42,017 nt of DNA, taken from an uncultured Synergistales bacterium. GTDB taxonomy: Bacteria; Synergistota; Synergistia; Synergistales; Aminobacteriaceae. The notes under the pieces were generated by a model. The model was not told where the DNA came from and did not search any database. It saw nothing but the letters and a program-made list of their open reading frames with translations. Within the stretch, counting starts at the first letter, position 1, and every line of letters begins with the position of its first letter. A program made the position numbers and the translations under genes. The stretch is from contig CAJOCL010000002.1 of NCBI GenBank assembly GCA_905233565.1, forward strand, positions 1-42,017, read 5' to 3'. Positions 1 through 42,017 of the stretch are shown piece after piece.

Positions 1-1050
1 ATAAAAATTCCTCGCTGCAATCTTCCTCGACAACACTATATGGCCGTCAAGTATACCCCTGACAGTATCGGCAACAGGCTCATTCATGTCATCGCCGTCA
101 ACAAGAACCGTATATATTCCCGTAATGCTCCCGACTTCACCTGCTCCGGCACGTTCAAGCAATCTAGGCAGCATCTCAAAAACTGAAGGAGTATATCCCC
201 GTGTTGCGGGAGGCTCACCGATTGCAAGCCCGATTTCACGCTGGGCACGGGCAACACGCGTTACCGTATCCATCATCAATAATACGTCCTTGCCCTGATC
301 CCTGAAATATTCGGCTATCGCTGTAGCAGTCATTGCTGATTTAAGCCTGATTAATGCCGGCTGATCCGATGTTGCGATTACGAGAACTGAACGCTTCAGA
401 CCTTCAGGGCCTAAATCCCGCTCGATAAATTCACGGACTTCACGGCCTCTTTCACCGACAAGCGAAATAACGTTCACATCTGCCGTCGTGTATCTTGCCA
501 TCATTCCCATTAACGTACTCTTCCCGACACCTGAACCGGCGAATATCCCTATACGCTGACCCTTCCCAAGCGTCAGCATTCCGTCAATTACACGGACACC
601 GACACTGAGCGGAGTATCTACCATTTTCCGCCTCAAAGGATGAGGGGGAGTTGCATACAACGGGTAAAAATCACTCGCAACAATCGGCCCCTTATCGTCA
701 ATCGGATTTCCCAAACCGTCAAGAACACGCCCTAACAGTGTTTCGCCTACGGGAACTTCAAGAGGCCTGTTTGTTGACACTACATCACAGCCCGGCCCGA
801 CTTCCTGCAGCGCTCCGAGAGGCATTAACAAAACTCTGTCATCCCTGAATCCGACAACTTCTGCGTCAAGTTCGTGTGAACCGTCCCGGAAGCATATATG
901 GCATAAATCACCGACTCTCACATCAGGCCCCTGAGACTCGGCAACAAGTCCGACAACCTGCACTATTCTCCCGTTTATCTTTATTAACGGCTTCTGCAAA
1001 AGGTCGACTGAAAAAAGCTGAAATAAATCAACATCTTCTAAATCTTTCAT
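1..1050 (-). CDS. fliI: Flagellum-specific ATP synthase FliI (3' end beyond window)
   Basis: FliI is the hexameric ATPase of the flagellar type III export apparatus; it works at the cytoplasmic base of the basal body with FliH as regulator. I read this gene directly from the minus strand: 350 codons are visible from ATG 1050 to the left edge, against about 440 in the family, so the C-terminal domain is missing. A beta-barrel N-terminal domain is followed by a Walker A motif GSGVGKST at about residues 172-179, a [11 protein letters not shown] segment just after it, and a Walker B-like [10 protein letters not shown] near 260. The start lies two bases after the fliH stop codon, so translation is probably coupled. 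It is the fifth gene of the fliE-F-G-H-I operon. The nearest alternative, a V/F/A-ATPase catalytic subunit, is unlikely given the flagellar neighbours. Confidence 0.95.
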
Positions 1051-1052
1051 GA

Positions 1053-2000
1053 TTACTTATCCTCTTTTGCCGACTGCTGAAATACTTCGTCAACAACATC
1101 TTCAATCTGCGACATCTGGGTTTTCCATCTGGCATCGTAAACGCCTAATCCCGTTTCAACAATACAGCTCCCGTTTTCTATATTCGGATCTGATTTAAGC
1201 TCGAGTTTCTTTACGCCCCTGAGAGCCTCGCGGAACTTAGTATCCATTTTGCCCTCTAAGTGTTTCATGTCATCGGGCGAAACGTAAATCAATATCTGAT
1301 TTTTATCGCTCAGGCGTGATAAGAGTTCTGACAAAACGGAGTCTATAGTGTCGGGATTAAGTTCAACCTGCCTGTGAAGCATTCTGCGTAACATTTCAGT
1401 CCATACACGTATCAGTCTCGGCTGATTGAGCCTGACAAGTTCCGCAAAATTGGCCTCAAGTTTCTTCCCTGCGTTGTCAATAACTCCTGCAAGTTCTGAA
1501 AATTTGTTGAAATATTCCTGTTCAACTTCAGCCCTTGCCTTCTTCAAGCCCTCTTCATAACCCGTAATCTGACCTTCGCTGACCGCCTGCGCTCTGGCTT
1601 TTTCGGCTATTTTATCGGCGTTGTTCTTTGCTTCGGCCTCTAACTGTTTACGGCGTTTTTCGTAATCTGACTTTATGCCGCCGATTTCGCTTTCAAGTTT
1701 TGCTTTTGCCTCTGAAAGTTCAGCGTTTTCAACTTCAGCATTGCTTAAACTGTTTGTAAGTGCCTTAATTTGTGCTGATAGTTCCTCGATTTCATGGGCA
1801 TTTGCAGCCGGCATCTTGACTTGAACTTTCGGGGCTTCAGGTTTTGTTTGTACGGGAGATTTTTCAGGCTTTCCCGGTTTATTGTCCTGCGGTTTTGTTC
1901 CTGACTGCTTGATTTCGTTCTCAAATATGCCGATTTTCACTGCCTGCGGCAAAAGTCTGACCGTCCGCAGAACTCTTTGATGTGCCAGACCGCTAGACAA
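1053..2000 (-). CDS. fliH: Flagellar assembly protein FliH
   Basis: FliH is the stator-like regulator of FliI in flagellar protein export. The protein is 315 residues. A charged, Pro/Lys-rich N-terminal segment (about 30-65) leads into a long Ala/Glu/Lys-rich coiled coil (about 70-165), then a globular C-terminal domain with [16 protein letters not shown] and the family-like tail segment [19 protein letters not shown]. The only plausible start is a TTG at 2000 that lies inside the last codons of fliG (8-base overlap), which points to translational coupling. Identity rests on position between fliG and fliI as well as on the coiled-coil plus C-domain layout, because FliH sequences diverge strongly. 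Confidence 0.88.
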
Positions 2001-3030
2001 TCATATCGTCCCCTCCGCCGGATGCAATTACGATTTCGCCCTGTTCCTCAAGTCCGCGTATTATGTTCACCACTTTCTGCTGTGCTTCCTCAACGTCCTT
2101 GACACGTACGGGTCCCATGAAATCCATATCTTCCTGTAACATTTCGGCTGCACGTTTCGACATGTTTTTGAGGTATTTAGTCTTGAGATCTTCCGTAGCG
2201 CCTTTAAGGGCGAGGCTGAGTTCTTTCATGTCAACTTCACGGAGTACGCGCTGCAGCGACCTGTCATCGAGACGCATTGAATCTTCAAATACAAATAATC
2301 TCTTCTTGATTTCCTCTGCAAGTTCCGGATCGTTCTCTTCAAGATATTCCATGATGTTGCGTTCCGTTGCCCTGTCGGTGCTGTTTACGATTGCTACAAC
2401 CGCGTCAATTCCTCCCGCAACGGTGAAGTCCTGACCCATTACCGTGCTTAACTTGCGTTCCAAGACCCTCTCAACCTCCCTCAAAACTTCAGGCGTTATC
2501 CTGTCCATGTTTGCAATCCTCTTTGTTACGTCAGCCTGTAAAACCGGATTAAGGCCGCTGAGAATCATTGCAGCCTGCGTAGGCTCCAAGTATGACAATA
2601 TAAGCGCAATAGTCTGAGGGTGTTCGTTCTGTATAAAGCCAAGTATCTGGCCTGCGTCTGTATGTCTCATGAAATCGAACGGCTTGACCTGCAGGCTCGC
2701 CGTAATCCTTGCAAGTAAATTCTGCGCTCTCTCCGGCCCGAGTGCTTTTTCCAATACATCACGTGCATATTCGACACCTCCGCGCGCCATGAACTCACGG
2801 GCCATCAAGATTTCCTGAGCTTCTTTCAGAACCGTGAGTTTTACGTCAGGCGTTACCTTTCTTAAATTTGCTATTTCAAGCGTAATAAGCTCTATCGTTG
2901 AATCATCGAGCTTTTTATAGACTTCAGGTGCTATATCAGTTCCAAGCGAGACCATAAGAACCGCGATTTTTTCGCGTCCTGTCAGTCCCCTGCTTGCAGC
3001 ATCATTCTTTTTGTCATTCTTTGGGGGCAA
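1993..3030 (-). CDS. fliG: Flagellar motor switch protein FliG
   Basis: FliG forms the upper ring of the flagellar C-ring, contacts FliF, and transmits torque from the stator. Length (345 aa) is normal. The N-terminal FliF-binding domain includes LTGREKIAVLMVSLG at about 16-30. The middle domain carries the conserved EHPQTIA motif at 136-142. The C-terminal torque helix region has the charged segment around DDRSLQRVLREVDMKELSLALKG. Translation starts at TTG 3030, preceded at good spacing by AAGGAGTG (3038-3045). A terminator-like hairpin lies between fliF and this gene. The end overlaps fliH by 8 bases. Confidence 0.97.
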   Translation of the reverse strand: MPPKNDKKNDAASRGLTGREKIAVLMVSLGTDIAPEVYKKLDDSTIELITLEIANLRKVTPDVKLTVLKEAQEILMAREFMARGGVEYARDVLEKALGPERAQNLLARITASLQVKPFDFMRHTDAGQILGFIQNEHPQTIALILSYLEPTQAAMILSGLNPVLQADVTKRIANMDRITPEVLREVERVLERKLSTVMGQDFTVAGGIDAVVAIVNSTDRATERNIMEYLEENDPELAEEIKKRLFVFEDSMRLDDRSLQRVLREVDMKELSLALKGATEDLKTKYLKNMSKRAAEMLQEDMDFMGPVRVKDVEEAQQKVVNIIRGLEEQGEIVIASGGGDDMIV

Positions 3031-3057
3031 TGTAAATCACTCCTTAAAATTTCAGAG

Positions 3058-3088: not shown

Positions 3089-3099
3089 ATGAAATATTT

Positions 3100-4677: not shown

Positions 4678-4684
4678 TTTTTAA

Positions 4685-5323: not shown

Positions 5324-6937
5324 ATGAAAGCATTAACTTTTCTTTTGCTTATAACTTTAACATTTATATTATCTCAAAGTCCTTCATCTGCTCAGGAAAT
5401 AATGAGAGCTGAGATCGTAAAAGTTGACTTTTACCCTTCAGGCGCAAAGTTCACCTTTTCCGTTGAACCTTCAGGGCAGGACGGCAGCTTCAACGCCGAA
5501 ATTCCGGGCGCGTTCAGTGCTGAGACGGTTAAGGCTGCGAACCCTGAGAATGTTTACGGCGATATTCAGGCAAGACAGTTTACGCGGACAAGGTGGATTC
5601 CTGAAGAGCTTGAAGCTCTCAATTCACAGCTCGAAAAACAGAGGACTCTCGTAAATTCACTTTTGGCGAGGAAAAATGCTCTCGAACAGACATTGACGCT
5701 CCTCAAAAATTCAAATCCCGACAAGTCAAAGCCTGAAGTCATAATCACGTTTATTACTGACGCTCAGGCATTGAGGCTTAAAACAGAAAATGATCTCGTT
5801 TCGCTTAATTCTGATCTGACAAGAGAACAGGAAAAACTCAGAGTTTTAACGGCTGAATTAGATTCAAAAAGACCTGCAAATGACAGGAGCTACATTCTCG
5901 TTACAGGTCAGGCAAAAGGAACAGTATACATTGAGGCTTTCACGGATTCCGCATCATGGGGACCGAAATACACGCTCAATCTTGACTCTCATACAGGCAA
6001 CATCGGCGTGAAAATGTATGTCCGTGCATTTCAGAAAACAGGGCTTAATTACACCGGAAAAATGACACTTCACACAAAAACACCTGACGAAAGAATAACA
6101 ACCCCTGAACTTTACCCCCTGAAAGTCGGCATAAAACCAAGAGAGGAAGTTATCGCTGCAAATTCAATGGTCAGTCTTTCACGCAATAATAATCAGTTCA
6201 AATCAGCAAGAAGAATGGCAATGCGTGAAGAATCAGAAACACTTGAAGATGTAACTAATTATGATGAGGCCGTTGCCGCACCTTCCATGATTCAGAGAGT
6301 TTCAGTTAATGAGACTTTAGCAGACAGGACACTTAATATTGAAGGGACGCTATCAGGCGACGGAACTGAAAGAGATTTTGAAGTAATCATGAATGATTTG
6401 ACGTTAAAGGGAAAAATAATAATCACCCTTATACCTGAACACAGAAATAACGCATGGATAGTCGCAAGCATGGATGAAAACAATGAGCATTTGATACCCG
6501 GTCAGGCTGAATTGAGGGTAGATAATCACACGTCAGGAAAAATATATCTCGATGAGTACGGCAAAAACGGAACAGGACAGAAAGAAATACCCTTCGGCTA
6601 TGCTGATCAGATTACGGTGAAAAAGACATCCCTTGTCGGAAAAACGGGTGTTTCATGGTTCAGCGGAGTATTTACAAGCGGCTATAAACTTGAAATAACA
6701 AACGGAACTAAAGACGATCATTTAATAACGCTCAAAGACAGGCTGCCGATACCTACGGACGAAAAAATAAAACTTGATGTCAAACGCATTGAGCCGCGCG
6801 AAAAAGAACGTGACAGAGAAAACCGGCTGACTTGGGAAATAAACGTCCCTGCTGGTGCAACAGTCCCGGTTATAGTCGATTATACTTTGAGCTACCCTTC
6901 AGGCGAGGAGCTGCAATACACAAATGGGACAGAATAA
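5324..6937 (+). CDS. Secreted DUF4139-family protein (MuiA-like)
   Basis: The protein resembles the DUF4140/DUF4139 (mucoidy-inhibitor MuiA-like) family, whose biochemical function is unknown. A signal peptide (KALTFLLLITLTFILSQ, cleaved near SSA-QE) is followed by a short beta domain, a coiled-coil hairpin at about 75-170, a beta-rich domain typical of DUF4139 (ASWGPKYTLNLDSHTGNIGV near 205-225), a variable Ser/Glu-rich loop, and a C-terminal beta domain ending with the PAGATVPVIVDYTLSYPSGE-like segment. I chose ATG 5324 rather than ATG 5300 because AAAGGAG at 5303-5309 would lie inside the longer version and precedes 5324; the spacing of 14 bases is long. The gene overlaps the next one by 14 bases. 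A role in the envelope fits with the lipid A genes downstream, but this is inference. Confidence 0.8.
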   Translation: MKALTFLLLITLTFILSQSPSSAQEIMRAEIVKVDFYPSGAKFTFSVEPSGQDGSFNAEIPGAFSAETVKAANPENVYGDIQARQFTRTRWIPEELEALNSQLEKQRTLVNSLLARKNALEQTLTLLKNSNPDKSKPEVIITFITDAQALRLKTENDLVSLNSDLTREQEKLRVLTAELDSKRPANDRSYILVTGQAKGTVYIEAFTDSASWGPKYTLNLDSHTGNIGVKMYVRAFQKTGLNYTGKMTLHTKTPDERITTPELYPLKVGIKPREEVIAANSMVSLSRNNNQFKSARRMAMREESETLEDVTNYDEAVAAPSMIQRVSVNETLADRTLNIEGTLSGDGTERDFEVIMNDLTLKGKIIITLIPEHRNNAWIVASMDENNEHLIPGQAELRVDNHTSGKIYLDEYGKNGTGQKEIPFGYADQITVKKTSLVGKTGVSWFSGVFTSGYKLEITNGTKDDHLITLKDRLPIPTDEKIKLDVKRIEPREKERDRENRLTWEINVPAGATVPVIVDYTLSYPSGEELQYTNGTE

Positions 6938-8081
6938 TTTTTTCAAATGGATTACTGTTCCGCCGGTCGTTGCAATCCCGACAATAATGCTCGCAAGAGC
7001 TATGGGGACAGGCAGCGTTATCGGCGAAGTCGACCTGTCTGTATGGGGTCTCGTTTGGTTCATGTTCATAATAATGAGCATTCTTTACGGACTCTTCATA
7101 GTTCACGGCTTCAATGAAGGCTTAATATCACTTCAGGCACTGGCTCAGGGCGTTTTACTGTGTCCGATGTCGATAACTTACGGCGCGAGAATGTTCCAAT
7201 GGCTCGGCGTTATTATCGCAGTCTGCGGAGGTGCCGCGCTTCTCGTAGCTTATAATCAGGCTGAAAACGAAAGAAATAAAGTTACTGTCGTTGAAATTCA
7301 GGACGATGTCAAACGCATACCGTCAAATTTCGTAATCACTGACAACACGGGAGTTATTCTAAATCTCACTGATGACATGCTCGCACTGTTAGGCATAGAG
7401 CGCGTTGAATCAGTCGGCAAAAATATAAGTGAATGGTTCAACCCCGTATCAACAACTACGGAGATAAACGGCAAAATCTGGGACATTAAGCGGAAAAGCC
7501 TCGATGACGGCAAGAGATTTTATTTTGAGCTCAACCCCAAAGGCCTTCCGTCAGGCGATGAAAACACCGGTGAACAGCAGGGCGAAAATTCAGGGGCTGT
7601 TGAATTTCTTGACCCTGATACACAGCTTCATACTTTCCGTTACGGAATGGCTAGAATCTCTGACGAACTTTACAGGGCAGGACGATATAACCGTCCTGTC
7701 AGTGCCTTGATGATACGCGTAGTATTCCCGCAGCTTCTGCCCGATGACGGAATGGACAAATATATACGTCCTTTCCGTGCATACTGCGCGAGGGTGAAGA
7801 AAGATTTAAGGCAGACTGACACGGTTATACAGGCCGGAGAATTTCAGTTTATCGCCGTTCTTTCAGAATGTCCGTATCAAATGGTCGAGAATATAATAAC
7901 CCGTTTGACTTCGATCGTTAATGCTTTATGCCCGACTTTTGAAGAGTTCCTGCATGTTACGATTCTTAGTGTCCATGAAACTTATGAAGGCGGAACAAAC
8001 ATACCGACAGCTCAGGAAGTTGTCGACAATTTAACACAGCAGATGACACGCAAGTATTCTGCGAATGCATTATCACAATGA
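6924..8081 (+). CDS. Membrane protein with PAS-like and degenerate GGDEF-like domains
   Basis: The 385-residue protein starts with about three membrane helices (roughly 10-27, 40-62, 92-110). A PAS-like segment follows at about 120-175 (FVITDNTGVILNLTDDMLAL), then a region shaped like a GGDEF domain from about 208: DPDTQLHTFRYGMARISDEL, RAGRYNRPVSALMIRV, and RQTDTVIQAGEFQFIAVLSE where an active cyclase would have GGDEF. The signature is therefore QAGEF and the protein is unlikely to make c-di-GMP. It may sense a signal or bind a nucleotide. Its start overlaps the DUF4139 gene by 14 bases and its stop overlaps the next ATG (ATGA), so it belongs to the envelope operon. I do not recognise a named family. 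Confidence 0.65.
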   Translation: MGQNNFFKWITVPPVVAIPTIMLARAMGTGSVIGEVDLSVWGLVWFMFIIMSILYGLFIVHGFNEGLISLQALAQGVLLCPMSITYGARMFQWLGVIIAVCGGAALLVAYNQAENERNKVTVVEIQDDVKRIPSNFVITDNTGVILNLTDDMLALLGIERVESVGKNISEWFNPVSTTTEINGKIWDIKRKSLDDGKRFYFELNPKGLPSGDENTGEQQGENSGAVEFLDPDTQLHTFRYGMARISDELYRAGRYNRPVSALMIRVVFPQLLPDDGMDKYIRPFRAYCARVKKDLRQTDTVIQAGEFQFIAVLSECPYQMVENIITRLTSIVNALCPTFEEFLHVTILSVHETYEGGTNIPTAQEVVDNLTQQMTRKYSANALSQ

Positions 8082-18640: not shown

Positions 18641-21600
18641 ATGAAACACAAAATGCGTTTTTCATTCGGAGTGTTCCTGCTGCTTCTTCTCAGTGCAGGA
18701 GCCTCATTCGCTGTAGCAATTCCCGGCCATGACGGTAAAGAGCTCGCATTGTCCCAGATACCCGACATAGTCAGGCATATTACGGGCAAAACCTCAGGGG
18801 ATTTAAGCATGAAGAAGGAATCACTGTTCATTTACAGTGTCGGCGGCAACCAGCACAAGGAACTTTACACGTTCAACAATGACGGCAGCCCTAACCGCCT
18901 CGTGTCATTAACGGGGGAATATGGTAGGTTGCCCTCTGGTCAGCATTACTGGCTGGACCTCTCAGACTATAGCAGAGTTTCAGTAGTCAACACTTCACCC
19001 GCAAGCAGCAGTGATGCAGGAAAAACCCTGCTGAATTTTGCTGTCGCTGGACTACCCTTAAGAACCTTCAGAACGCTGGACAATCAAGGTAATTATGTTG
19101 TGAGCAGTGCTGACGCAGGCGGTGTAAATGTTCAGGAGGGCGGCAAACGTTTTGTATGGCGGGATGTATGGCCGGAAGATCATGAAATCTCAGGCAAATT
19201 AGTCGGTGTCAAAGCAGGTATCAAAGTGAAGGGCTATGACGGCGAGCTTGTCGCGTTTCTCTTCAGGGACGGCGCAACAGTCCGTTTACATTTGGGATGT
19301 GTCAATTACGGCACTGCTGCCGCTGACGCGTACGTAACCCCGGCAGCTCCAGACACATGGTCAAAGACTCTCAACATGGTTCCGACTATGTTTGACGGAA
19401 CAGTATATTTCCCCGTCGACATGGCCGCAGGCGATTTCAACAATGACGGCTATGCCGATGAAATTGTTGTGGTTGAAACGGACACAGTTGCTATCCACTA
19501 CAACGTCCTCCATATTTCACACACGGGAAGCACACCAAAGGACGCTCGTTTCTCGGTCAGCCTGCTTAGAGACGGCGAGGTCGGCAGATATGACTACAAG
19601 ATTATGCATTACAAAGATACTATTGACCAGGAATTGACCGAACAGTACCAGGCCCGCGGCACTAACATTGACGGACTTTCCTGCACGTATTCAGTCTGCA
19701 CTGTGGCCGGAGATTTTGACGCGGACGGAAATACAGAGTTTGCCGTAATTTACAGGGACACATCGCCGCAGGTTCAAACCTTGAAAAGAGGCCCCACTCA
19801 GCATACTTTTTTCGTTGGCTACACAGGGCGCATTCACGTCAAGACATATAAATGGAACGGAGGCAGTTTCCGGAGTGAGGAAGACGTGCAAACTCTTGAT
19901 TCTGAATCCGTTGAGCGCAGAACATTTCTTGAATTACTAGATTGTAGAGAATATAATATGCCGATCGGAGTTAAGGCCACTGTCGGAGATTTTGACGGAG
20001 ACGGCCGTGATGATATTGCTGTCCTGAGAGTCATGCTTCAGACCGAGAGGTATTATAGTCGTTGGCATACTACCTGGCTTTTACCTCCGTATTTAAGTTT
20101 AGCATTCGGCGCATATGTTGACTGGTACACGTTCGACTATAGAAGCATAAAGCCGATATATAACGGTATCGGCACCCCCACCAGATACTGGAATCACAAC
20201 AACAGCAGCGGCTGGGTAGGAGTAAGCACAAAGGATGTGGATCTTCCTAGTACCAGCGAGGCAGGCATAAATCAGGACGGTGATCATTCACAGGAAAACC
20301 AGAACAAAATCAGGAAACTTTACTTTCTTCAGCCTATAACAGGAGAACAGAATCCCTATCCCTTTGTTGACCGCGAATTTGACATCATCGCCGGGAAATT
20401 CACAGGCACGGTAGGAAAAGCAACGACACGCGACGACCTCATCATCAAATATCCCAAGTGGGCTGACGGGGGCGGAAACAAACTGAGGAGTCATATTGCA
20501 CTGATGTCGAACATTCCGGGCATAAAAAGCGGGCAGGCTCAGGTCAAAGAGATTACTGTAGCCAGATTCCGCGATCATCATTTTGCATTTGCGAAGGCTG
20601 ATTATGTCGATGAGAGCATTTCTCTCAACGACCCTGTGAAAGTTACTGACACTTCGGACCGTGATTATACCGCCGAGCTTCAGATGTTCCCGTATCATGT
20701 CGATAACCTGACTTCAGACGGCACAGCACTGCAGAAAGGCCCGAATAATTTCACGCTCCGGCTTGGCACCACGGTAACATACAGCAACACTTCTTCAAGC
20801 ACAGAGACAGAGAACCTCAAATACGGCATGACGAGAGTAGCTGAGACTATATTTGCCATCGACAATCCGGCGATGCGGACGGCCTCAAAAACCTTCCAGG
20901 GCATAAGGGGAATAATGACCTCCGGAATAGGAGACAATGACTTTATCAAGAAGATTGGCACCGTTGGAGGGATATGGGACAAGCTGAAGGACACAGTAGA
21001 GACAACGACATCAAAATCAAACGAGCGTTCCCAGAGCTATACCATGACAATAAGAACTGAGGCTGACTATCAGGATACCCTGTACATGAACCTGTCAACC
21101 CGTTACATATGGCGTTATCCTATTCAGGAAGTCCCTGCTCCGGCGTGGATTATCGGCCAGACAAGAGACGACACTACGGGCAGCTTTGACAAATCGAAGG
21201 TAAGGGATAAGCGCAGCTACATCACTTTTGCCATGAGCGAGCCTTCATCGCCGTCAGGCGTGGCAGGTGTCAATGACTCGTACTACCAGCCGTATCACGA
21301 GCGCGGCAACCTGTTTTCATATCCTCCAACACTTGAGCAGGTAGAAGGCTACACGGGAGGAACGTCCATCGCCAAAGAAGGTAAAAGGACATGGAACGGC
21401 TCAAATTTTGCGGAAGAAATCACACTGACAAGCACAGTAACGAGCCAAGATCAGACAAAGAAGGTCAACAAGCTCGGAGCGATAACAAAATTCCTCTCAG
21501 CGATAGATAACCTTTTCGGCTCAAATATGGCGCATATTCCGCAGAACAGCGAGTCAAGTTTCACAAGGAGCGTAACAGACGGCGAGAGCATAAAAATAAA

Positions 21601-22871: not shown

Positions 22872-25800
22872 TTATTTCTTAACGGCAATCGCAGGAGAAT
22901 ATATTACCCCTTTATTGAGCCAGGCAGAAACGGTTATTTTTCGTTTTTCAGGAACGTTGAAAATCTCCTCGCCCGTCTCACCGTCATAGAACTCTGCAAT
23001 CTCATCATCACTTGACGATTTACCGTCCTCAGGGTTAGCAAGCCAGATTAATTTTGCCCCGACAGAAACATCGTTGCTTAATTCAGCGTCAAAGTCATAC
23101 ATTCCAGAAACATCTACGCTTATTTCAGGCAGAACGTAAACTACAGAATCGTATTCCTGTTTTGTTACGGTACTTGAACTTTCATTATTTGTTGCCGGTA
23201 CAGCTGACTTTATGGCCGTTTGAGTGCCTGCCGTGTTTGCCGTACCTGCAGTTGATGTTGATGTCGGTGCTGCTGACGATGTTTTTAGTGCCGGTGCAGA
23301 CGCTGACTTGACGCTTTTAGTCTTAGGGTCAACAACTGAGAGTGTGAAAGTTTTTGATGTATTGCCTATTGTGTTTGAGGCCGTTACCGTAACCGTATAA
23401 CTCCCTGTAGCCTTCGGGGTGCCTTTGAAAGTCCCTGAACTGAAAGTTATACCGCTCGGAAGTTTCCCCGTAACTTTCCATTTAATTGTCTTAGTTCCCG
23501 TTGCGGTCAGTCTTGAACTGTAAGATTTCGACAAAGTTGCAGATGAGAGTGAAGATGTCGTTATTTTCGGTGAAGTCATAGTTTTTATGACGATCTTCCT
23601 CGTTGCCTTGCCGTCAGCATTTGCAGCCGTTATCGTTATGTTTGTTGTTGAATCTTTCGCCGGAGCCTTTCCCGTCAGTTTGGCCGTGTAATCTCCCGTC
23701 TTCGTCAGCTTAAATCCGCTCGCACCGCTCATGGTAAACGTTATGTTTTTCGTTCCGTTTACTTTGAAGTCTATTTCTATATTGCTGTTGACTTCTTTTG
23801 TTAATGTCGTTGTAGCCGCTGAAGGTGTCGTGAATTTAGGCTTTGTTCCCGTAACGGTAAAATTGACTTTTCGTGTTACCCCGCTTGATGACACTGAATT
23901 TTTAGCAGTGAACGTTATCGGCAGTGATTTAATTGAAATAGTCGGAGTACCCGTTATTTTCGCCGTACCGTCAGAAGGATTAGCGGTAAACGTAAGCCCT
24001 AAATCCGAAAGGCTGCTTATGCCGAATTTAGCTTTATCTGATGCAGATATGCTGTAAGAAATCGTTATCGGCTTAGTTCCTGTTGCTGAAATTTTGCTTC
24101 CTGAGTACGAACTTCCTGCCCTTGCGTTTGCAAGCGTGGCCGTAAGTTTAGGTGCAACGCCGTTTACGGTGAGTGTCAATGTTTTTTCCGTTGAACCTGC
24201 CGAGTTAGTCAGGGTAAATTTAACCGTATACTTTCCTGCTTCAGTCGGAGTTCCCGTTATCGTTGCAGTTGCTCCCGTTGAAACCTGCGAAAATTTCAGG
24301 GTGCTTGGAAGTCCCGTTACTGTCCATTTTATATTTGCCGATCCTTTTGCCGAAAGTTTAAGCGAGTACTTTTTATCAGTTGTAGCTGCCGTGAGTGATT
24401 TTGTTGACAACGTAGGCTTCTGTACGACCGTAAGAGGGACTTTTAAAGTTGCCTTTCCTGCTGCGTTCTTGGCCGTAACAGTCATAGTGAATTTTCCTGC
24501 TTTTGTCGGAGTTCCTGAAAGAATCCCGGAACTTGACATTTTCATTCCTGAAGGCTGGCCGGATATTGACCACGTAATCGGGGTTGTTCCGTCTGAGGCC
24601 GTGAATTGAACGCTGCTGTATGCTTCACCCATTACAGCATCTTTCAGAGTTCCGGGCGAGGCTATGACGGGCGGACGGGCTTTTATAGTTAGCTTGAGAG
24701 TTTTTGTTACGGGCTTTTTGTCAAGCTGAGTTGCTATGTTCTCGGCGGTTATTTTTACGGTGAAAGTTCCTGCTGCTGCCGGCGTTCCGCTCATGTAAAC
24801 GGTGCTTTTTGTCAAAGACAGGCCGCTGGGAAGTCCCGTAACCGTCAGGCTTATCGGTGCCGTTCCCGTAACGCTTATTGCCTGTGAATAAGCATAACCT
24901 ACAGTGCCGATTTTCAGGCTTGAAACGTTTATAACGGGCTTTACGGGCTTTGTGTTTATCGTGAATTTAACCGTTCCCGTTGACGTTCCCTGCGATGTTA
25001 CGGCATTGAATGAGACATTGTAAGTCCCTGCTTTTGTCGGCTTTCCTGAAATTAAGCCGGATGATTTGTTTAACGATAACCCGGCGGGCAGTGAGCTTTT
25101 CGCCGTCCATGTTGCGGAAGTGCTGGGCGTTAATTGAAGTTTCTGGCTGAACGAGTAGCCTACATAACCCGTTAATTCAGTCGTGCTTATAACAGGCATG
25201 TCATAAACATCAATAGTGTAACTCTTTGAGGCTGATCCGTAAGAGTTTGTGACTGTTATTGTGAACGTATAACTTCCTGTTGCTGTCGGTGTCCCTGAGA
25301 TTGAACCCGTTGAAGTGTCAAGGCTTAAACCTGAAGGAAGGCTCCCTGCTGTCAGTGCCCATGTCATCGGCGTAGTTCCTGTTGCTGCAACGTATGAGCT
25401 GTAGGACTTCTTCAAATAACCGCTTGGGAGGCTTGATGTGTTTATTCTCGGCGCAACTCCTGAAACTGAGCCTGTAACTGTGAAGGCTTTTACACATGCG
25501 TTTATGGCCTTGCTTTCCCCCGTTGTCCAGTTTTGGCCGTTAGACGAAAAGAAACTGCCCTTATCTATAACAGCGTTGTCAGTAAAACCATTATTAGTTT
25601 TCATTTCAACTGCTGTAGTTGTATATCCTTTGAACCTTACGACAACTGAAAAGTATTCGCCGTTGGAAAGACTTACGGGAGTATTAAGAGTTATTGTGTG
25701 ATAACCTGCGAATGCTATTGATCCTGACTGAGTACTCAATGATGTTCCGCCTGAAGGGATCGGGCTTGATGAAGGCATTGCCGACATTCCTGCGTAAACG

Positions 25801-27017
25801 TTGATTTCGTAATTAATATTATTATCAGGAGTGTAGAACGCTACTTCGGTGAGTGTCTCATTTCTAGTGGCCCTGAAGACGTTAGCAAAATATATATTTG
25901 ATGCTCCGCTCGTATATCCCCAGTGTCCGCTCCAGCCCAGAGCGTCATAATAATATGCCTTCATTGATGAGTCTGCATCTTCAACAACGAACGCGCTTCC
26001 GTCAGTCAGTTTCTGTGCGTATGACATCCAGAAGTAGCCGTTATCTCCCCATGATGTACCCCATGAATTTTTTATCAGCCACGCGCCGTCAATACTGGGC
26101 TGACTTCCGCTCTTGAAGTTGCTTCTTGAATAGCTGTCGTCCCAGCCGACTATCTGTACTGCGTGGTTAGTTGTTGCGCTGTTTTTGTAATAATAATTTG
26201 TGCCTTTTGATGACTTGTAATAAGACGAATCATCGCTGTAATAACTGGCAACTACTGCACCGTTTGCTATTATGCGGTCTTTTACGATGTTTCGTGCTGA
26301 TGATGATTCGTTGACGTTTTTGTTGTCACCGAAACCAAGATAGAAAACATCTCGCAGCCTCAAAACTCTTGTGTAACTGTCGGGCGTACTCTTTGAGGGC
26401 TGTGTAGGATACGGGACTTCAGTCTCATTTGCCGGGCCTGATAGACGCGAGAATAACGCCGTAGGATAGAATGAATTTCCGCCATGATTCATGACATCTG
26501 CAAAACTTTTACTGTTCATGTTATCGAAGGCCGCTGATGCCGTTGAATTTCTGAACGCAAACCAAGCAAGGTGCATTTCTGAAAGGTCAAGGGCTGATTT
26601 TCCCTGCATTAAGTAATTGCTTTCCATTGCGCCGATTGCCGCATGTGCCCAGCATGTTCCGTAAGGATTTTGATTTTTTATGCTTGTAACATAACTCTTT
26701 CCGCCTACGCTGCGAAGGTCATACGCTGATACTGCCTTTCTGTTCGGAACAGGCGATGTTGTTTCAACAGGAGGATTTGACGCGAGGTGCGACAGGTCAA
26801 TCGGAATCGGAATATAACCGTTCTTAAATGATGATGACGATGAAGATGATGATTTTCTTGTTATTACTGAAGATGAGGATTTTTGCTCTGCCTGCCATTG
26901 GAGGAACTCAGGTGAAAGCGGCTTAAATCCTGATTCTGCGGCCTGTGCCATTGCCGAATGAATTACGAGAAATACTGCAATGAGCAATGAATATCTGAAA
27001 ATTTTCCGCATTGTCAT
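22872..27017 (-). CDS. Secreted papain-family (C1A) cysteine protease with eight Ig-like repeats
   Basis: The 1381-residue protein has a signal peptide (FRYSLLIAVFLVIHSAMAQA), a Ser-rich linker (about 47-63), and a C1A peptidase domain at about 97-345 with a complete catalytic set: Gln116 and Cys122 in NQNPYGTCWAHAA, His285 in TNHAVQIVGWDD, and Asn317 in WLIKNSWGTSWGDNGYF. A beta domain (about 350-510) follows, then eight tandem putative-Ig (He_PIG-like) repeats from about 525 to 1240, each with a version of LPSGLSLDTSTGSISGTP. A Ser/Thr/Ala-rich linker leads to a last beta domain; there is no Synergist-CTERM tail. Either ATG 27017 or ATG 27011 could start it. It is convergent with the other giant secreted protein. 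Likely role is surface or extracellular protein digestion or adhesion; the target is unknown. Confidence 0.88.
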   Translation of the reverse strand: MTMRKIFRYSLLIAVFLVIHSAMAQAAESGFKPLSPEFLQWQAEQKSSSSVITRKSSSSSSSSFKNGYIPIPIDLSHLASNPPVETTSPVPNRKAVSAYDLRSVGGKSYVTSIKNQNPYGTCWAHAAIGAMESNYLMQGKSALDLSEMHLAWFAFRNSTASAAFDNMNSKSFADVMNHGGNSFYPTALFSRLSGPANETEVPYPTQPSKSTPDSYTRVLRLRDVFYLGFGDNKNVNESSSARNIVKDRIIANGAVVASYYSDDSSYYKSSKGTNYYYKNSATTNHAVQIVGWDDSYSRSNFKSGSQPSIDGAWLIKNSWGTSWGDNGYFWMSYAQKLTDGSAFVVEDADSSMKAYYYDALGWSGHWGYTSGASNIYFANVFRATRNETLTEVAFYTPDNNINYEINVYAGMSAMPSSSPIPSGGTSLSTQSGSIAFAGYHTITLNTPVSLSNGEYFSVVVRFKGYTTTAVEMKTNNGFTDNAVIDKGSFFSSNGQNWTTGESKAINACVKAFTVTGSVSGVAPRINTSSLPSGYLKKSYSSYVAATGTTPMTWALTAGSLPSGLSLDTSTGSISGTPTATGSYTFTITVTNSYGSASKSYTIDVYDMPVISTTELTGYVGYSFSQKLQLTPSTSATWTAKSSLPAGLSLNKSSGLISGKPTKAGTYNVSFNAVTSQGTSTGTVKFTINTKPVKPVINVSSLKIGTVGYAYSQAISVTGTAPISLTVTGLPSGLSLTKSTVYMSGTPAAAGTFTVKITAENIATQLDKKPVTKTLKLTIKARPPVIASPGTLKDAVMGEAYSSVQFTASDGTTPITWSISGQPSGMKMSSSGILSGTPTKAGKFTMTVTAKNAAGKATLKVPLTVVQKPTLSTKSLTAATTDKKYSLKLSAKGSANIKWTVTGLPSTLKFSQVSTGATATITGTPTEAGKYTVKFTLTNSAGSTEKTLTLTVNGVAPKLTATLANARAGSSYSGSKISATGTKPITISYSISASDKAKFGISSLSDLGLTFTANPSDGTAKITGTPTISIKSLPITFTAKNSVSSSGVTRKVNFTVTGTKPKFTTPSAATTTLTKEVNSNIEIDFKVNGTKNITFTMSGASGFKLTKTGDYTAKLTGKAPAKDSTTNITITAANADGKATRKIVIKTMTSPKITTSSLSSATLSKSYSSRLTATGTKTIKWKVTGKLPSGITFSSGTFKGTPKATGSYTVTVTASNTIGNTSKTFTLSVVDPKTKSVKSASAPALKTSSAAPTSTSTAGTANTAGTQTAIKSAVPATNNESSSTVTKQEYDSVVYVLPEISVDVSGMYDFDAELSNDVSVGAKLIWLANPEDGKSSSDDEIAEFYDGETGEEIFNVPEKRKITVSAWLNKGVIYSPAIAVKK

Positions 27018-33333: not shown

Positions 33334-33335
33334 AG

Positions 33336-35869: not shown

Positions 35870-35876
35870 TTATATC

Positions 35877-35937: not shown

Positions 35938-36981
35938 ATGATTAAGTTTGAAACTGATTATCAGGAAGGTGCATCGCCGGAAATCTTAGAGCGTTTAGTG
36001 AAGACTAATTTTGAACAGACTTCAGGATACGGCGAAGATTCACACTGTCAGCGAGCAAAGGAACTTATACGGAAAGAAATTAACAGGCCGAATGCAGCAG
36101 TTTACTTCATGGCCGGAGGAACTCAGACAAATACAACGGTTATAAAGCATTTTTTAACGCCTTGCGAGGGTGTTATAGCCGTAAATTCAGGTCATATAAA
36201 CGTACATGAATCGGGCGCAATCGAGGCAACAGGCCATAAAGTTATCGCCCTTAACGCTCATGACGGCCTGCTTGATGCAGAAGATTTAAGGCTTTACCTT
36301 GAGGCTTTTTATGCTGATCCGACACATGAACACATGGTACTTCCCGGCATGGTATATATTTCTTACTCTTCAGAACTTGGGACGCTGTACAAAAAATCAA
36401 TGCTTCAGGAAATAAAATCAGTATGCAGTGATTACGGGCTGAAGCTCTTTATTGACGGTGCGAGGCTCGGAGCGGGCTTAATGTCGGACAGCTCCGACAT
36501 GACAATGCAGGACATTGCAGGCTTATGCGACGCGTTTTACATCGGCGGAACGAAAACGGGCGCACTTTTCGGCGAGGCCGTAATCTTCCCTGAGCCTGAA
36601 AAAGCTAATCTCAAACAGTTTACTACGCTGATAAAACAGCAGGGCGGATTGCTTGCAAAAGGGCGGCTCTTGGGGATTCAGTTTGAAGTTTTGTTTGAAG
36701 ACGGATTGTATTTCAGGAATGCAAAACACGCAGATATTCAGGCCATGAAGATTAAGAAGGCTTTTTCTGAAGCAGGAATAAAATTTTTGATTGACTCGCC
36801 GACAAATCAGCAGTTCCCGATTTTGACGCGTGAACAGCATGAAAAGTTATCATCAAAATTCAGCTATGAAACTTGGCAGCCGTTAAATGACGGGAATATT
36901 GCCGTAAGATTCTGCACAAGCTGGGCAACAACTGATTATAATATAGACGAATTAACAAGGGCAATTAAGGAGTTAAAATGA
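35938..36981 (+). CDS. Low-specificity threonine aldolase-type PLP enzyme
   Basis: This fold-type I PLP enzyme of the beta-eliminating lyase family most likely splits threonine (or allo-threonine) to glycine and acetaldehyde. In 347 residues it shows AAVYFMAGGTQTNTTVIKHF near 54-73, the AVNSGHINVHESGAIEATGHKV segment near 83-104 in two parts, the cofactor aspartate in LFIDGARLGAGL near 167, and the PLP lysine in YIGGTKTGALFGEA near 201. AAGGAG lies about 15 bases before ATG 35938, a long spacing. It overlaps valS by three bases. The sequence cannot separate L- from D- or serine-type specificity. Confidence 0.87.
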   Translation: MIKFETDYQEGASPEILERLVKTNFEQTSGYGEDSHCQRAKELIRKEINRPNAAVYFMAGGTQTNTTVIKHFLTPCEGVIAVNSGHINVHESGAIEATGHKVIALNAHDGLLDAEDLRLYLEAFYADPTHEHMVLPGMVYISYSSELGTLYKKSMLQEIKSVCSDYGLKLFIDGARLGAGLMSDSSDMTMQDIAGLCDAFYIGGTKTGALFGEAVIFPEPEKANLKQFTTLIKQQGGLLAKGRLLGIQFEVLFEDGLYFRNAKHADIQAMKIKKAFSEAGIKFLIDSPTNQQFPILTREQHEKLSSKFSYETWQPLNDGNIAVRFCTSWATTDYNIDELTRAIKELK

Positions 36982-39653
36982 CTACAAGAAAACGGAACAG
37001 AAATTTAGACAAGAGTTATTCACCGGACAATATAGAACAGAAATGGTATTCAGAATGGCTTGAACACGGCCTCTTCAACGCTGAAATAAGCGCGGATAAA
37101 GAGGCGTTTTCGATCGTAATTCCGCCTCCTAACGTTACGGGTTCCCTGCATGTCGGCCATGCGTTCGATCATACGTTTCAGGATATTATGTGCCGTACAA
37201 AGCGTATGGAGGGTTACAGCGTCTTATGGCTTCCCGGGACTGACCACGCAGGAATCGCAACTCAAAACGTTGTTGAAAAGGACTTGGCAAAAAAAGGAAT
37301 ATCACGTTACGATCTCGGGCGCGATGAGTTTGTAAAAAAAGTCTGGGAATGGAAAAAAGTTTACGGCTCCCGGATAATCGAACAGATGAAGAGGCTCGGA
37401 AATTCCTGCGACTGGAGGCGAGAAAGATTCACGCTTGACGAGGGGTTATCACGTGCCGTCAGAGCCGTATTCGTAAGGCTTTACAAGAAGGGCTTAATAT
37501 ACAGGGGAAAATACATTGTAAACTGGTGTCCGCGCTGTGAAACGGCAATTTCAGACCTTGAAGTCGAATACGAGGACAAACAGGGTAAATTCTATTATGT
37601 GAAATACCCGTTAATTGAGACTGACTGCGAGGAAAAATACATACTTGTTGCGACGACGCGCCCGGAAACGATAATCGGCGATGTTGCTATAGCCGTTCAC
37701 CCGCGTTCAGAAAAATACAGGCACTTAATCGGTAAACATGTAAAAGTGCCGTTAACTGAACGAATAATCCCCATAATCGAAGATAACATGGTTGACCCTG
37801 AATTTGGTACGGGCTGCGTAAAGATTACGCCGGCTCATGATCCGAATGATTTTCTTGTCGGCTTAAATCACAATCTCGAACAGATACAGATTATTGACGC
37901 AAAGGGAATAATGAACGATAAGGCCGGAAAATATCAGGGAATGACAATCGAACAGGCACGCAAAGAGTCAGCGAAAGACTTGGAAGAACTGGGCCTGCTT
38001 GTCAAAACTGAAGACATAACCCACTCGGTCGGACACTGCCAGCGCTGCGGGACAACAGTAGAGCCGTATTTATCTGAACAGTGGTTCGTAAAGACAAAGC
38101 CTCTTGCAGAACGCGGAGTGCAGGCAGTTAAGGACGGGCGTATAAAATGGGTTCCCGAACAGTGGGAAAAAACGTATTTCAACTGGATGGAAAATATACG
38201 GGATTGGTGCATTTCCCGTCAATTATGGTGGGGACACAGAATCCCGGCTTGGGAATGTAAGGACTGCGGACACATAACGGTTGCAGAGATTGACCCGACG
38301 GAATGCGAACACTGCCACAGCAAAAATATTGAACAGGAAAGCGATGTCCTTGATACGTGGTTCAGCTCTGCTCTTTGGCCGTTTTCAACAATGGGCTGGC
38401 CTGACGACAAGCCGGAACTGAAGTATTTTTATCCGACTTCATTAATGGTAACGGGCTTTGACATAATATTCTTCTGGGTTGCGAGAATGATTATGATGGG
38501 TCTTGAGTTTATGGACGATGTACCGTTCAGGGATGTTTATATACATTCTCTTATACGTGACGAACACGGCAAGAAGATGAGCAAGACTAAAGGCAACGTT
38601 ATAGACCCGTTAGTAATGATTGACAAGTACGGAGCTGATGCGCTCAGAATGACGCTCGCCGCTTTATCAGTTCAGGGACGGGATATACTGCTGTCGTCAA
38701 CAAGAATCGAGACTTACAGATTTTTCATGAACAAACTTTGGAACGCCTCACGCTTTGCGCTCATGAATCTTGATGACGAAGTAAGAGATATTGACCTTTC
38801 ACAATTACAGCTTCATGATAAATTCATTTTGACGCGTACTCAGGAAATGGCAAAGAGTGTCAGAGAATTGATAGATTCTTACGACATCGGAACGGCTGCA
38901 AGGGGTCTTTACGATTTTGTCTGGGGGGATCTCTGCGACTGGTACGTTGAGATGAGCAAGCCTGCATTGAAGGGCGATGAGGGTGAAGACAGAAAGAAAA
39001 CAACTCAGGCTGTCCTTGAACATGTATTCAAGACAGTTTTGCCGCTGTTGCACCCGTTTACGCCGTTTATTACTGAAGAGTTGTGGGCTGCGTTCGGTTT
39101 CAACGATGATTACATTATGAAAACTTCATGGCCTGAACCTGTAAGAGATTATATTTTTGAGGGCGTTAATGACGACATGAAGGTATTGCAGGAGACTGTG
39201 AGGGTTCTTCGTAATCTCAGGGCGGAAGCACACGTTCCGCCTCAGCAGAAGTTAAGCCGTGCCGTAATCCGTGTCAGTTCGGGAACAAAGGCCGCTGAAA
39301 TTCTGAAAGCGTCATTAAATCAAGTCTCAAACCTCTGCAAAATCAATGATGTAATTCTTGAAGAACCTTCGGGCGGATGGACATACGGGCCTTCACTTTC
39401 AGGAGTTGCGGGTGAAGCTGAGGTTAAATTACCGGTAGGAGATGTCCTCGATGTTCCGAAGGAAATTGCGAGGCTTGGACAGGAAATTTCAACGCTTGAA
39501 AAGAATATCGCCTCAAGTCAGGCCAGATTGAATAATAAGGATTTTGTTTCACGGGCTCCGGCTGAAGTTGTCGAGAAGGAACGCTTAAAAGTCTCAGAAG
39601 GTCAGGCACAAATTGAAAGATTGAGGGCAAATCTTGAAAGTTTGAGCAGGTAA
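36978..39653 (+). CDS. valS: Valyl-tRNA synthetase
   Basis: ValS charges tRNA-Val and edits mischarged threonine. The 891-residue class I enzyme has the HIGH motif as HVGHAF in IPPPNVTGSLHVGHAFDHTF (about 48-67), the TDHAGIATQ loop, the editing-domain ATTRPETIIGDVAIAVHP segment, a zinc-like pair of cysteine motifs (WECKDCGH and TECEHCHSKN), the KMSKS motif as KKMSKTKGNVIDP near 532, and a C-terminal coiled-coil arm (about 825-890). All functional parts are intact and length is normal. Its ATG shares bases with the aldolase stop (ATGA). A stem-loop starts six bases after its stop. Confidence 0.97.
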   Translation: MTTRKRNRNLDKSYSPDNIEQKWYSEWLEHGLFNAEISADKEAFSIVIPPPNVTGSLHVGHAFDHTFQDIMCRTKRMEGYSVLWLPGTDHAGIATQNVVEKDLAKKGISRYDLGRDEFVKKVWEWKKVYGSRIIEQMKRLGNSCDWRRERFTLDEGLSRAVRAVFVRLYKKGLIYRGKYIVNWCPRCETAISDLEVEYEDKQGKFYYVKYPLIETDCEEKYILVATTRPETIIGDVAIAVHPRSEKYRHLIGKHVKVPLTERIIPIIEDNMVDPEFGTGCVKITPAHDPNDFLVGLNHNLEQIQIIDAKGIMNDKAGKYQGMTIEQARKESAKDLEELGLLVKTEDITHSVGHCQRCGTTVEPYLSEQWFVKTKPLAERGVQAVKDGRIKWVPEQWEKTYFNWMENIRDWCISRQLWWGHRIPAWECKDCGHITVAEIDPTECEHCHSKNIEQESDVLDTWFSSALWPFSTMGWPDDKPELKYFYPTSLMVTGFDIIFFWVARMIMMGLEFMDDVPFRDVYIHSLIRDEHGKKMSKTKGNVIDPLVMIDKYGADALRMTLAALSVQGRDILLSSTRIETYRFFMNKLWNASRFALMNLDDEVRDIDLSQLQLHDKFILTRTQEMAKSVRELIDSYDIGTAARGLYDFVWGDLCDWYVEMSKPALKGDEGEDRKKTTQAVLEHVFKTVLPLLHPFTPFITEELWAAFGFNDDYIMKTSWPEPVRDYIFEGVNDDMKVLQETVRVLRNLRAEAHVPPQQKLSRAVIRVSSGTKAAEILKASLNQVSNLCKINDVILEEPSGGWTYGPSLSGVAGEAEVKLPVGDVLDVPKEIARLGQEISTLEKNIASSQARLNNKDFVSRAPAEVVEKERLKVSEGQAQIERLRANLESLSR

Positions 39654-39659
39654 GAAAAT

Positions 39660-39681
39660 CCCCCAGCCTTAAAACTGGGGG
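39660..39681. repeat. REP-like stem-loop after valS, sharing loop with the stem-loop at 31374-31400
   Basis: CCCCCAG (39660-39666) and CTGGGGG (39675-39681) form a perfect 7-bp stem around CCTTAAAA. On the minus strand the loop reads TTTTAAG and an ATTTTC tail follows, as in the stem-loop at 31374-31400. On the plus strand no U tract follows, so it is not a classical valS terminator. It marks the left edge of the R-M pair. Confidence 0.5.
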
Positions 39682-39693
39682 CTAATTATAGGT

Positions 39694-40561
39694 ATGTTCA
39701 ACGATATATTGAAGATAATAGATAGTTCAAAAGGCAGAAATTTTTATGATGTCTGCGGACTATTAGAGGCGTTAATAAGCTCTGATAAAAATTTTAATGA
39801 TATTCTCCGCCAAATTAGGAACAATCCCTGAAAGCATATCGCATGACTCAGCTGAAGAAAAATTATTTTCTAAGGCTTCAGATATGGTTTTGTCCCGTGC
39901 ATTCAGAGAATTAGGGCTGAAATCAGCAGTTTTGCATGAACGCGGAGATTCGGCAGACGTTACCGCTGAATCAAGAATACACGGCTATACGTTTGTTGCT
40001 GATTCAAAGGCTTTCAGACTGAGCAGGACGGCAAAAAATCAGAAAGATTTTAAGATTTCAGCATTGTCAAGCTGGAGAAAAGATAATGATTATGCCGTTT
40101 TATGCTCTCCGTATTTTCAGTATCCGGCGAAATCGAGCCAGATATACGCGCAGGCACTTTCAAGTAATGTATGTCTTTTCAGCTGGGAACATTTAATCTT
40201 CATGCTTGATAATCACGTGAGAGAAACAGCAGAGTTAAATTTTTCAGAAATATGGAATTTCAGCAGTAATTTTTCACATAAAGTTCTGGTCTCTGATATG
40301 AAGAGAAATTTTATGCTTGATTTCAGCAGTTTTTTGGCTGAATTTCTAAATATTGACGCTGAAATATTTAATGCTTCGCTGAAAGAGCAAATATCATGCC
40401 TCATCAATCGAAGCCGTATTGAAAAAGATTTCTGGATTGATAAAATTAAAATCATAAAGAATTATTCACGCGAACAGGCAGTGAACGAGCTTATAAACTC
40501 GCTGAAAATCAACGAGAAACTAAACCAGATTAATACATATATCAGGAGCATATCACAATGA
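39694..40561 (+). pseudogene. HindIII-like type II restriction endonuclease, frameshifted near its N-terminus
   Basis: The catalytic ORF (39797-40561, 254 aa) is recognisably homologous to HindIII (cuts at AAGCTT): EEKLFSKASDMVLSRAF, the PD-(D/E)xK site with Asp54 and D69-S-K71 in FVADSKAFRLSRTAKNQKDF, NDYAVLCSPYFQYP, LFSWEHL, and RSRIEKDFWIDKIKIIKNYS. The HindIII N-terminal helices are found in another frame as a 45-residue ORF at 39694-39831 (FNDILKIIDSSKG ... NFNDILRQIRNNP). Removing one A from the AAA run at 39812-39814 joins the two as ILRQ-LGTIPES and gives 288 residues, close to the 300 of HindIII. So either a 1-base insertion has broken the gene, or there is a sequencing error. The isolated catalytic ORF might still be translated. 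The methyltransferase overlaps by four bases. Base composition is more AT-rich than around it. Confidence 0.85.
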
Positions 40562-41470
40562 AACTTGATGTATTAATTCACGGCAATTCGATAGAAATAT
40601 TGAAAACATTTCCAGAAAGTTCAGTACATGCAATAATCTCTGATATACCGTACGGAATCGGCTGCGATGAATGGGACATACTGCACGACAACAAAAATTC
40701 TGCATACGGCGGAGCTTCTCCTGCACAGATTTCCGGCGGTGGCCTGTTCAAACGCAGAGGGAAACCGTTAAACGGCTGGAGTGATGCAGACAAAAACATA
40801 CCGCGTGAGTATCAGGACTGGTGCATGTCATGGGCCTCTACATGGCTTAGAGTTTTGAAACCCGGCGGAACGTGCTTTATTTTTGCCGGAAGGCGTTACG
40901 CGCACAGGTGCATTACGGCTCTTGAAGATTCCGGCTTTACGTTCAGGGATATGCTTGCATGGGAAAAAGATAACGCCCCTTACCGTGCGCAGAGGCTTTC
41001 GTCAATATATGAACGCAGGAGTGATACAGAAAACGCTGAAAAGTGGCAGGGCTGGAGGGTTGCGAACTTGAGGCCGCTTTTTGAGCCTATATTATGGTTT
41101 CAGAAGCCGTACAGAACTGGAGGAACTATTGCGGACAACGTAATAAATTATGAGCTGGGTGCATGGAATGAGCAGGCCATAACAAAGTATAATATTCGTG
41201 ATGATAACAGCAATATCCTGAAGGTTAAGACCTCACAGAACGATCATGGCCTTCATGTTGCCCAGAAGCCTTTGAAACTCATGGAGCTGTTAATTTCTTT
41301 GGTTACAACTGAAGGACAGATTATTAGACCCTTTTATGGGTTCCGGCACTGTATGTACAGCCGCAAAAAATCTCAACAGACATTACATCGGAATAGACAT
41401 AGAGGCTTTGAATATAGCGACAGCCGAAGAAAGATTAAATACGGCTTTTCAATGTGAACTTGCACTGTAA
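40558..41470 (+). pseudogene. M.HindIII-like adenine-N6 DNA methyltransferase, frameshifted before motif I
   Basis: The product resembles M.HindIII, a beta-class N6-adenine methyltransferase that protects AAGCTT. Motif IV is ISDIPYG (Asp29-Tyr32 form of DPPY), followed by GCDEWDILH, RRGKPLNGWSDADK, RAQRLSSIYERR, and RPLFEPILWFQKPYRTGGTI. In the uninterrupted frame (to 41457, 299 aa) the protein ends in nonsense after EGQI. The next frame, from about 41327 to a TAA at 41468-41470, encodes the AdoMet-binding motif DPFMGSGT, then NRHYIGIDIEALNIATAEERL. Removing one base near 41320-41326 restores QILDPFMGSG and a 303-residue protein, close to M.HindIII. As it stands, the AdoMet motif is lost and the enzyme should be inactive. 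Confidence 0.87.
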
Positions 41471-41509
41471 AAATCCCTTTTTCAGCGAGGGCATAGGCTG
41501 CAGATAAGG

Positions 41510-41553
41510 AAAAATTAATCCCCTCTCTAAAAATTTCAGGAGAGGGGCTTTTA
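41510..41553. terminator. Bidirectional terminator between the R-M pair and the AEC transporter
   Basis: CCCCTCTC (41520-41527) and GAGAGGGG (41540-41547) form a perfect 8-bp stem with a 12-base loop. CTTTTAT follows on the plus strand and TTAATTTTT on the minus strand, so it can end transcripts from both convergent sides. Confidence 0.8.
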
Positions 41554-41558
41554 TGAGA

Positions 41559-42017
41559 TTAGATCATCATACATATAACTGGAATAGTAATCATACATAA
41601 TACATTCTGTAAAAACATAATCTTTGCTGCAAAATCAATATTCCCGTGATACATTTCACACATTCCGACGGTAACGCTTGCGCCGGGCATGGCGTTAATC
41701 AAGACAAGGACGGCTGAAACAAGAGGATTTGAACTTATGCTGAAAATTTTCAGGATTAAGCACAGTGCCACAGGGTATATGACAAGGCGCATTGCTGTAG
41801 CGATCCAGGCGTGAAAATTTTTGAGAATGTCAGATGCTTTTGAATGAGCTAATGCCATTCCGATCATGAACATTGAAAGAGGCGTTGTCATGTTGGATAT
41901 ATAAGAAATAGGGACGGCAGCTGTTGACGGCAGACTTATCCGGCCGAAATAAAATATTAAGCTCAAGACCGTAGCTATGTTTATGTTACTGAAGATTATA
42001 GATTTCATGTTCAGGCC
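41559..42017 (-). CDS. AEC-family (auxin efflux carrier-type) transporter, C-terminal part
   Basis: The reading frame is open to the right edge; the visible 152 codons are the C-terminal half of an AEC/malate-permease-type membrane transporter (full length about 300-320). Five helices are visible. Family features are the PISYISNMTTPLSMFMIGMALA segment just after the domain junction (kept here in two parts), LVIYPVALCLILKIF, and NAMPGASVTVGMCEMYHGN followed by the last helix. ATG 42008 is internal, since upstream codons continue in frame. Members of this family export organic acids or other small anions; the substrate cannot be read. Confidence 0.85.
   Translation of the reverse strand, partial: GLNMKSIIFSNINIATVLSLIFYFGRISLPSTAAVPISYISNMTTPLSMFMIGMALAHSKASDILKNFHAWIATAMRLVIYPVALCLILKIFSISSNPLVSAVLVLINAMPGASVTVGMCEMYHGNIDFAAKIMFLQNVLCMITIPVICMMI

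Follow-up and report, generated by a model that had tools for sequence, protein, structure and literature searches.

The closest described relative of the locus reported here is the HindIII restriction-modification (R-M) system (endonuclease family PF09518; PDB 2e52 and 3a4k). In 75 of 80 public loci of this type, the methylase (M) lies beside the endonuclease (R) on the same strand; one of them is a Haemophilus influenzae record (L089), whose two proteins are 44% (R) and 57% (M) identical to those of G030, a member of the genus studied here. When a restriction site is avoided, this is usually taken to signal either an enzyme that is still resident or the fading trace of one. Rusinov et al. 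2015 (PMC4687349) found the sites of orthodox Type II systems to be avoided in about 50% of the 1774 cases considered. Palindromic Type II sites were rare in the host and often also in relatives without the system: avoidance was seen in 43.3% of 1930 such cases when other strains of the same species were compared, and in 18.4% of 5162 when the comparison was with other species of the same genus. Literature searches on restriction-modification in the phylum or family, and on site under-representation, gave no title on the genus among the matches listed (12 of 1,184 in one listing).

We analyzed a window of 42,017 bases (positions 1..42017) from an uncultured Synergistales bacterium. An intact valS gene (36978..39653, plus strand) is followed directly by R (39694..40561, plus strand) and M (40558..41464, plus strand), and the pair also follows valS in G002, G028 and G030 (genomes are cited by our working numbers). 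R is homologous to HindIII over nearly its full length, matching PF09518 (RE_HindIII) with an E-value of 4.7e-58 (197 bits, cut-off 25.3) and HindIII in the PDB (2e52) with an E-value of 3e-73. M matches PF01555, is orthologous to the methylase that adjoins R homologues in public loci, and occupies the position of the adjacent cognate methylase directly after R, which is the pairing seen in those loci. By homology, the pair is a HindIII-type R-M system, in agreement with the first-pass annotation of such a pair at 39694-41470. Residues D54, D69 and K71 of R (numbered on the 254-aa ORF) are kept; the corresponding columns hold D in 80/80, D in 78/80 and K in 80/80 homologues, and we take them to be the acidic residues and the lysine of the catalytic site. 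Residue 70 of the same ORF (39797-40561), which lies between two of these conserved catalytic-type residues, is serine, unlike all 80 homologues, in which this position is alanine.

Unlike the HindIII system, both genes here are broken, each by one frame change. Residues 1-41 of R are encoded at 39694-39816 and the remainder in a second frame at about 39812-40561, the longest ORF being 39797-40561 (254 aa); relative to intact relatives, the change falls after about residue 41. In M, the change lies at about 41321-41340 (about residues 258-264), upstream of the DPFMGSGT motif, which is readable solely in the second frame. Beyond the breaks, R and M stay open and are 73% and 75% identical to those of G030, a pattern suggestive of recent breakage. 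None of the other 32 window ORFs was seen to be split, as judged from their Pfam matches (a few ORFs matched only partly); ORF 6924-8081, which has no Pfam family, and ORF 41559-42008, which is cut at the window edge, are weak controls. That sequencing errors in general account for the broken frames is therefore unsupported, within the reach of this limited control. The frameshifts had previously been described as recent or not real; the open, conserved tails favor the former, and the unsplit ORFs make the latter unlikely. Two other ORFs of the window (18641-22810 and 22872-27017) are very large (1389 and 1381 aa); one has a weak FG-GAP match, and the other combines a papain-like protease, a lectin-like domain and many Ig/PKD domains.

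An exact search of the window found no AAGCTT, confirming an absence that had been read by eye and that the discovery of several sites would have contradicted. Each of the pentamers AAGCT and AGCTT has 37 occurrences, close to the hand counts of about 30 and about 35. The base following AAGCT is A, C or G in 2, 15 and 20 cases, and the base preceding AGCTT is C, G or T in 12, 20 and 5 cases. The expected number of AAGCTT sites is 12.3 from base composition and 10.1 from a maximal-order Markov model, and at the latter value a count of zero has a probability of about 4e-5; in 100 dinucleotide shuffles of the window the number was 18.2 (sd 4.3). Shuffling of synonymous codons in the 34 window ORFs (39,132 coding bases), with proteins and codon usage held constant, restored AAGCTT to 15.6 sites (sd 3.8), and zero was reached in none of 200 shuffles. 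By exact count, GAATTC occurs 0 times in the window and TTTAAA once, and these two stand ahead of AAGCTT, which ranks third among the 64 six-base palindromes in both the Markov and the codon-shuffle tests. The comparison with other six-base palindromes that had been proposed as a check thus bears out the depletion but places AAGCTT only third, and because other palindromes are depleted as much, AAGCTT is ruled out as the sole avoided site. A degenerate AGCT-centred target is unsupported, as the window holds AAGCTC 15 times and GAGCTT 20 times.

The whole genome (2,020,267 bases in 34 contigs) contains 38 AAGCTT sites, far below the approximately 647 expected (O/E 0.06), in line with the genome-wide deficit that the first-pass annotation would predict; this Markov expectation was scaled from a 438.5-kb sample made up of the window and 20 stretches, some of which were picked for holding sites. 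The genome density is so low that a site-free 42-kb window, with a probability of 0.45, is ordinary for this genome, which rules out the window as a local anomaly. GAATTC, scaled in the same way, occurs 36 times genome-wide against about 789 expected. In the sample, 16 of the 64 palindromes have an O/E below 0.2, including GAATTC (0.02), GGCGCC (0.04), CCCGGG (0.05), GATATC (0.05), GACGTC (0.06) and TTTAAA (0.06). Non-palindromic words are also strongly depleted in the sample (CCGAGG, CCACGG, GACGCC, GAGCAC, GGACC, CCAGG and GTCAC); degenerate sites would fit these, with CCGAGG and CCACGG read together as CCNNGG, GACGCC as GRCGYC and GAGCAC as GWGCWC, as would five-base sites. GAGAAA/TTTCTC has an O/E of 0.34 (z -16) in the same sample and, to our knowledge, matches no known recognition site.

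These data bear on the possibility that no R-M system is involved and that AAGCTT is rare on account of base composition, codon usage or a broad aversion to palindromes. The median palindrome O/E of 0.58 in this genome is in keeping with such an aversion. However, AAATTT and ATATAT are near 1, codon shuffling brings back the 15.6 sites, and AAGCTT is near normal both in four system-less genomes of the genus (G014, G018, G024 and G036; O/E 0.77-1.09) and in ten genomes from other families of the order (0.61-1.1), and we find this explanation scarcely credible.

Islands might shelter some of the sites that remain: 10 of the 38 lie in six contigs shorter than 20 kb (58 kb together). However, these contigs were retrieved on account of their sites, and several of 10 scanned site-bearing ORFs are metabolic or gyrA-like. 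Structural RNA as a refuge of the remaining sites was not borne out, since an Rfam search over 8 loci yielded a single match, a RAGATH-18 RNA. This RNA is located at L192:213-275, on a small contig of this genome that also bears an AAGCTT.

PADLOC gave labels of Type II only. In a search of 43 genomes of the genus, four had a nearly full-length EcoRI-family endonuclease (PF02963), interrupted by an internal stop in one of them, and none was found in the genome of the window. GAATTC numbers fewer than 100 per genome in 24 of the 43 and 963-1472 in 7. The 37 genus genomes searched have 1-16 matches to PF01555 each, versus 0-5 in 24 outgroups from the order, and the genome of the window has 5, M included. 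G035 has 3, 0 and 0 matches to three methylase families, to which these counts are confined, versus 9 depleted palindromes; we take this mismatch as a lead only.

Whole-genome AAGCTT counts in the 43 genus genomes span 12 to 1838, and 32 genomes have fewer than 100 sites per Mb. A methylase orthologue (at least 74% identity) is present in 11 of the 43, and R in 9, that is, in 9 of 37 plus 0 of 6 for which an all-negative search does not establish absence; the pair is intact in G002, G008, G016, G025, G028 and G030. Depletion is seen in 8/11 genomes with M and 24/32 without it (Fisher P 1.0), and in 8/9 with R and 21/28 without it (P 0.65; 37 genomes). In phylogenetically independent pairs, genes and depletion hardly ever changed together, although too few pairs differed to support a test. 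The depletion appears to track the cognate system by clade, but not genome by genome. The attribution of AAGCTT avoidance to a HindIII-type enzyme therefore stands in part: the avoidance is real, genome-wide and of the right kind at the level of the clade, but the local pair by itself is not supported as a sufficient cause, since genomes without M are depleted as often and other palindromes are equally depleted, including GAATTC where no EcoRI-family endonuclease was found.

Markov O/E values, estimated from small samples of 32 genomes (four samples below 10 kb are unreliable), covered eight R carriers (all but G028); seven of these gave 0.025-0.18 and the eighth, G008, gave 0.38. System-less genomes gave 0.02-0.11 (G003, G004, G006, G009, G010, G011, G015, G023, G029, G031, G032 and G035), 0.16 (G007), 0.23 (G013) and 0.59 (G020), in addition to the four near-normal ones, and the methylase-only G012 gave 0.70. 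Palindromes with an O/E below 0.2 make up 229 of 971 evaluable cases in 27 genus samples, versus 5 of 383 in the ten outgroups.

The depleted genomes that lack the pair allow two explanations to be weighed. The genes might be present in most species and have dropped out of the genome bins, as accessory DNA is often omitted from metagenome assemblies. The closest homologues indeed come from metagenome-assembled genomes of rumen and gut, and genus genomes are often fragmented (up to about 530 contigs), but the pair-less, depleted G010, G031, G035 and G011 are 97-100% complete in 30-180 contigs, and in many genomes the flank of valS was examined and the pair was not found there. We consider such a loss from the bins very improbable. 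Alternatively, a separate, non-homologous AAGCTT-specific restriction system might keep the sites out of HindIII-less species. The near-complete G010, G031 and G035, depleted with neither PF09518 nor M.HindIII orthologues, are what it would predict; on the other hand, our analysis yielded no candidate for it, and the depletion starts with the HindIII-carrying clade, which fits HindIII itself. In our judgment, the involvement of a separate enzyme is quite doubtful.

The ValS tree includes 38 of the 43 genomes (G020 is absent) and was rooted on G018 and G064 by our choice. Its 10 carriers fall in one clade of 33 rows, 28 of which are depleted, and the five rows outside this clade have 399-762 AAGCTT per Mb. 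The undepleted rows within the clade are G066, G012, G013, G063 and G008; G066 (427 per Mb) and G009 lie near the base of the tree, where their placement is uncertain. In the methylase tree, all 11 sequences from the genus group together to the exclusion of 40 outsiders (support 98/98), and their subgroups resemble the groups of the ValS tree, with the exception that G016 is joined with G012. The simplest history would be one acquisition in the genus with mostly vertical descent, an assumption that implies 16 losses on the ValS tree.

Several genomes hold the pair in part. R is broken and M intact in G019 and G026, M occurs without R in G012 and G063, and both genes are broken in the genome of the window. 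G065 carries a scar beside valS, in which the beginning of R continues directly into a segment from the later part of M, and has 17 AAGCTT in 2.2 Mb. Remnants of the HindIII-type pair and a fragment of an EcoRI-family endonuclease are both found in G065 (L229 C37, L289 C21), where AAGCTT and GAATTC are both rare (17 and 15). The methylase-only G012 and G063 have 649 and 232 AAGCTT per Mb, in keeping with a lone methylase exerting no pressure on the site (n=2). In G012, whose genome contains 1234 AAGCTT, the HindIII-type methylase (L204, C42) has no endonuclease partner and stands next to a gene that is presumably RecO-like; G012 might be used to test if avoidance is relaxed by methylation alone.

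We modeled the decay of avoidance by redrawing synonymous codons in the window ORFs. The O/E was 0.07 with 2.5% of codons changed, 0.17 with 6%, 0.38 with 16% and 0.54 with 25%. Between HindIII-less sisters, synonymous ValS codons differ by 14% (G011/G035), 33% (G011/G034), 20% (G015/G062), 41% (G017/G032) and 51% (G023/G027). If half of the divergence is assigned to each lineage since a shared loss, the predicted O/E is about 0.2-0.5, whereas the observed values are 0.037 (G011), 0.069 (G035), 0.058 (G015), 0.083 (G032) and 0.02 (G023); the model is a simple one, with divergence taken from one gene and divided evenly between the lineages, and with expectations from small samples. Observed values below the prediction suggest either that losses took place far later and far more often than the tree implies, as would be the case for a system that is patchy within species, or that something else still acts on AAGCTT.

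This result weighs on the view that the system is gone from most lineages and that low AAGCTT is slow decay with no current selection. In its favor, Rusinov et al. 2015 (PMC4687349) document such traces of lost systems, the breaks in the genome of the window look recent, and G065 has a scar yet remains depleted. However, the O/E seen in G011, G035, G015, G032 and G023 (0.02-0.08) is lower than the model predicts, and many independent, very recent losses would be required. We therefore regard decay alone as unlikely. The depletion in HindIII-less clades points instead to patchy strain-level retention of the system or to an unseen AAGCTT enzyme. Tentatively, HindIII-less species may be under present AAGCTT selection, through unrecognised AAGCTT-directed restriction or a species-wide R-M pool of which each strain carries few genes.

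The explanation toward which we lean, if only slightly, combines one HindIII-type acquisition, clade-wide avoidance through self-cutting, repeated loss and patchy lingering. A HindIII-type (AAGCTT) Type II R-M system would have entered this presumed Synergistaceae lineage once, early in the genus; AAGCTT is the probable recognition sequence of the pair, given the homology and the distribution of depletion by clade. The presumed selective force, cleavage of the cell's own DNA where methylation is incomplete, would then have removed AAGCTT from the genomes of the descendant clade. Later the system would have disappeared repeatedly, in some cases with the endonuclease going first, and in the genome of the window both genes appear to have broken recently, with the sites not regained. 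Other Type II specificities may have left like footprints, making AAGCTT one of at least a dozen avoided sites. The system may linger as a patchy strain-level gene, which would prevent decay where the sampled genome, the one that represents each species, lacks the genes. This single-acquisition account draws on the depletion in the window and genome, the homology of R and M, the clade pattern, the normal outgroups, the single methylase clade, the G065 scar and the intermediates. Counting against it are the lack of a genome-by-genome association of R or M with depletion, the five undepleted rows of the clade together with G020, which has no pair, and the joining of G016 with G012 in the methylase tree, unlike in the ValS tree.

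With one inferred acquisition, many losses, a scar and methylase-only genomes, the genus would allow synonymous divergence to serve as a yardstick for the rise and decay of avoidance. If avoidance does persist without the genes, the R-M pool shared by a species, not the single genome, shapes composition and barriers to DNA exchange, and a genome would be moulded by enzymes absent from most of its cells. Compared with the cases described by Rusinov et al. 2015 (PMC4687349), the depletion here extends to 24 of 32 genomes without the methylase, often reaches an O/E below 0.1 for many sites at once, and exceeds the modeled decay after loss. Overall, the AAGCTT avoidance in this genus is the known footprint of old restriction in an unusually strong, clade-wide form, broader than first proposed.
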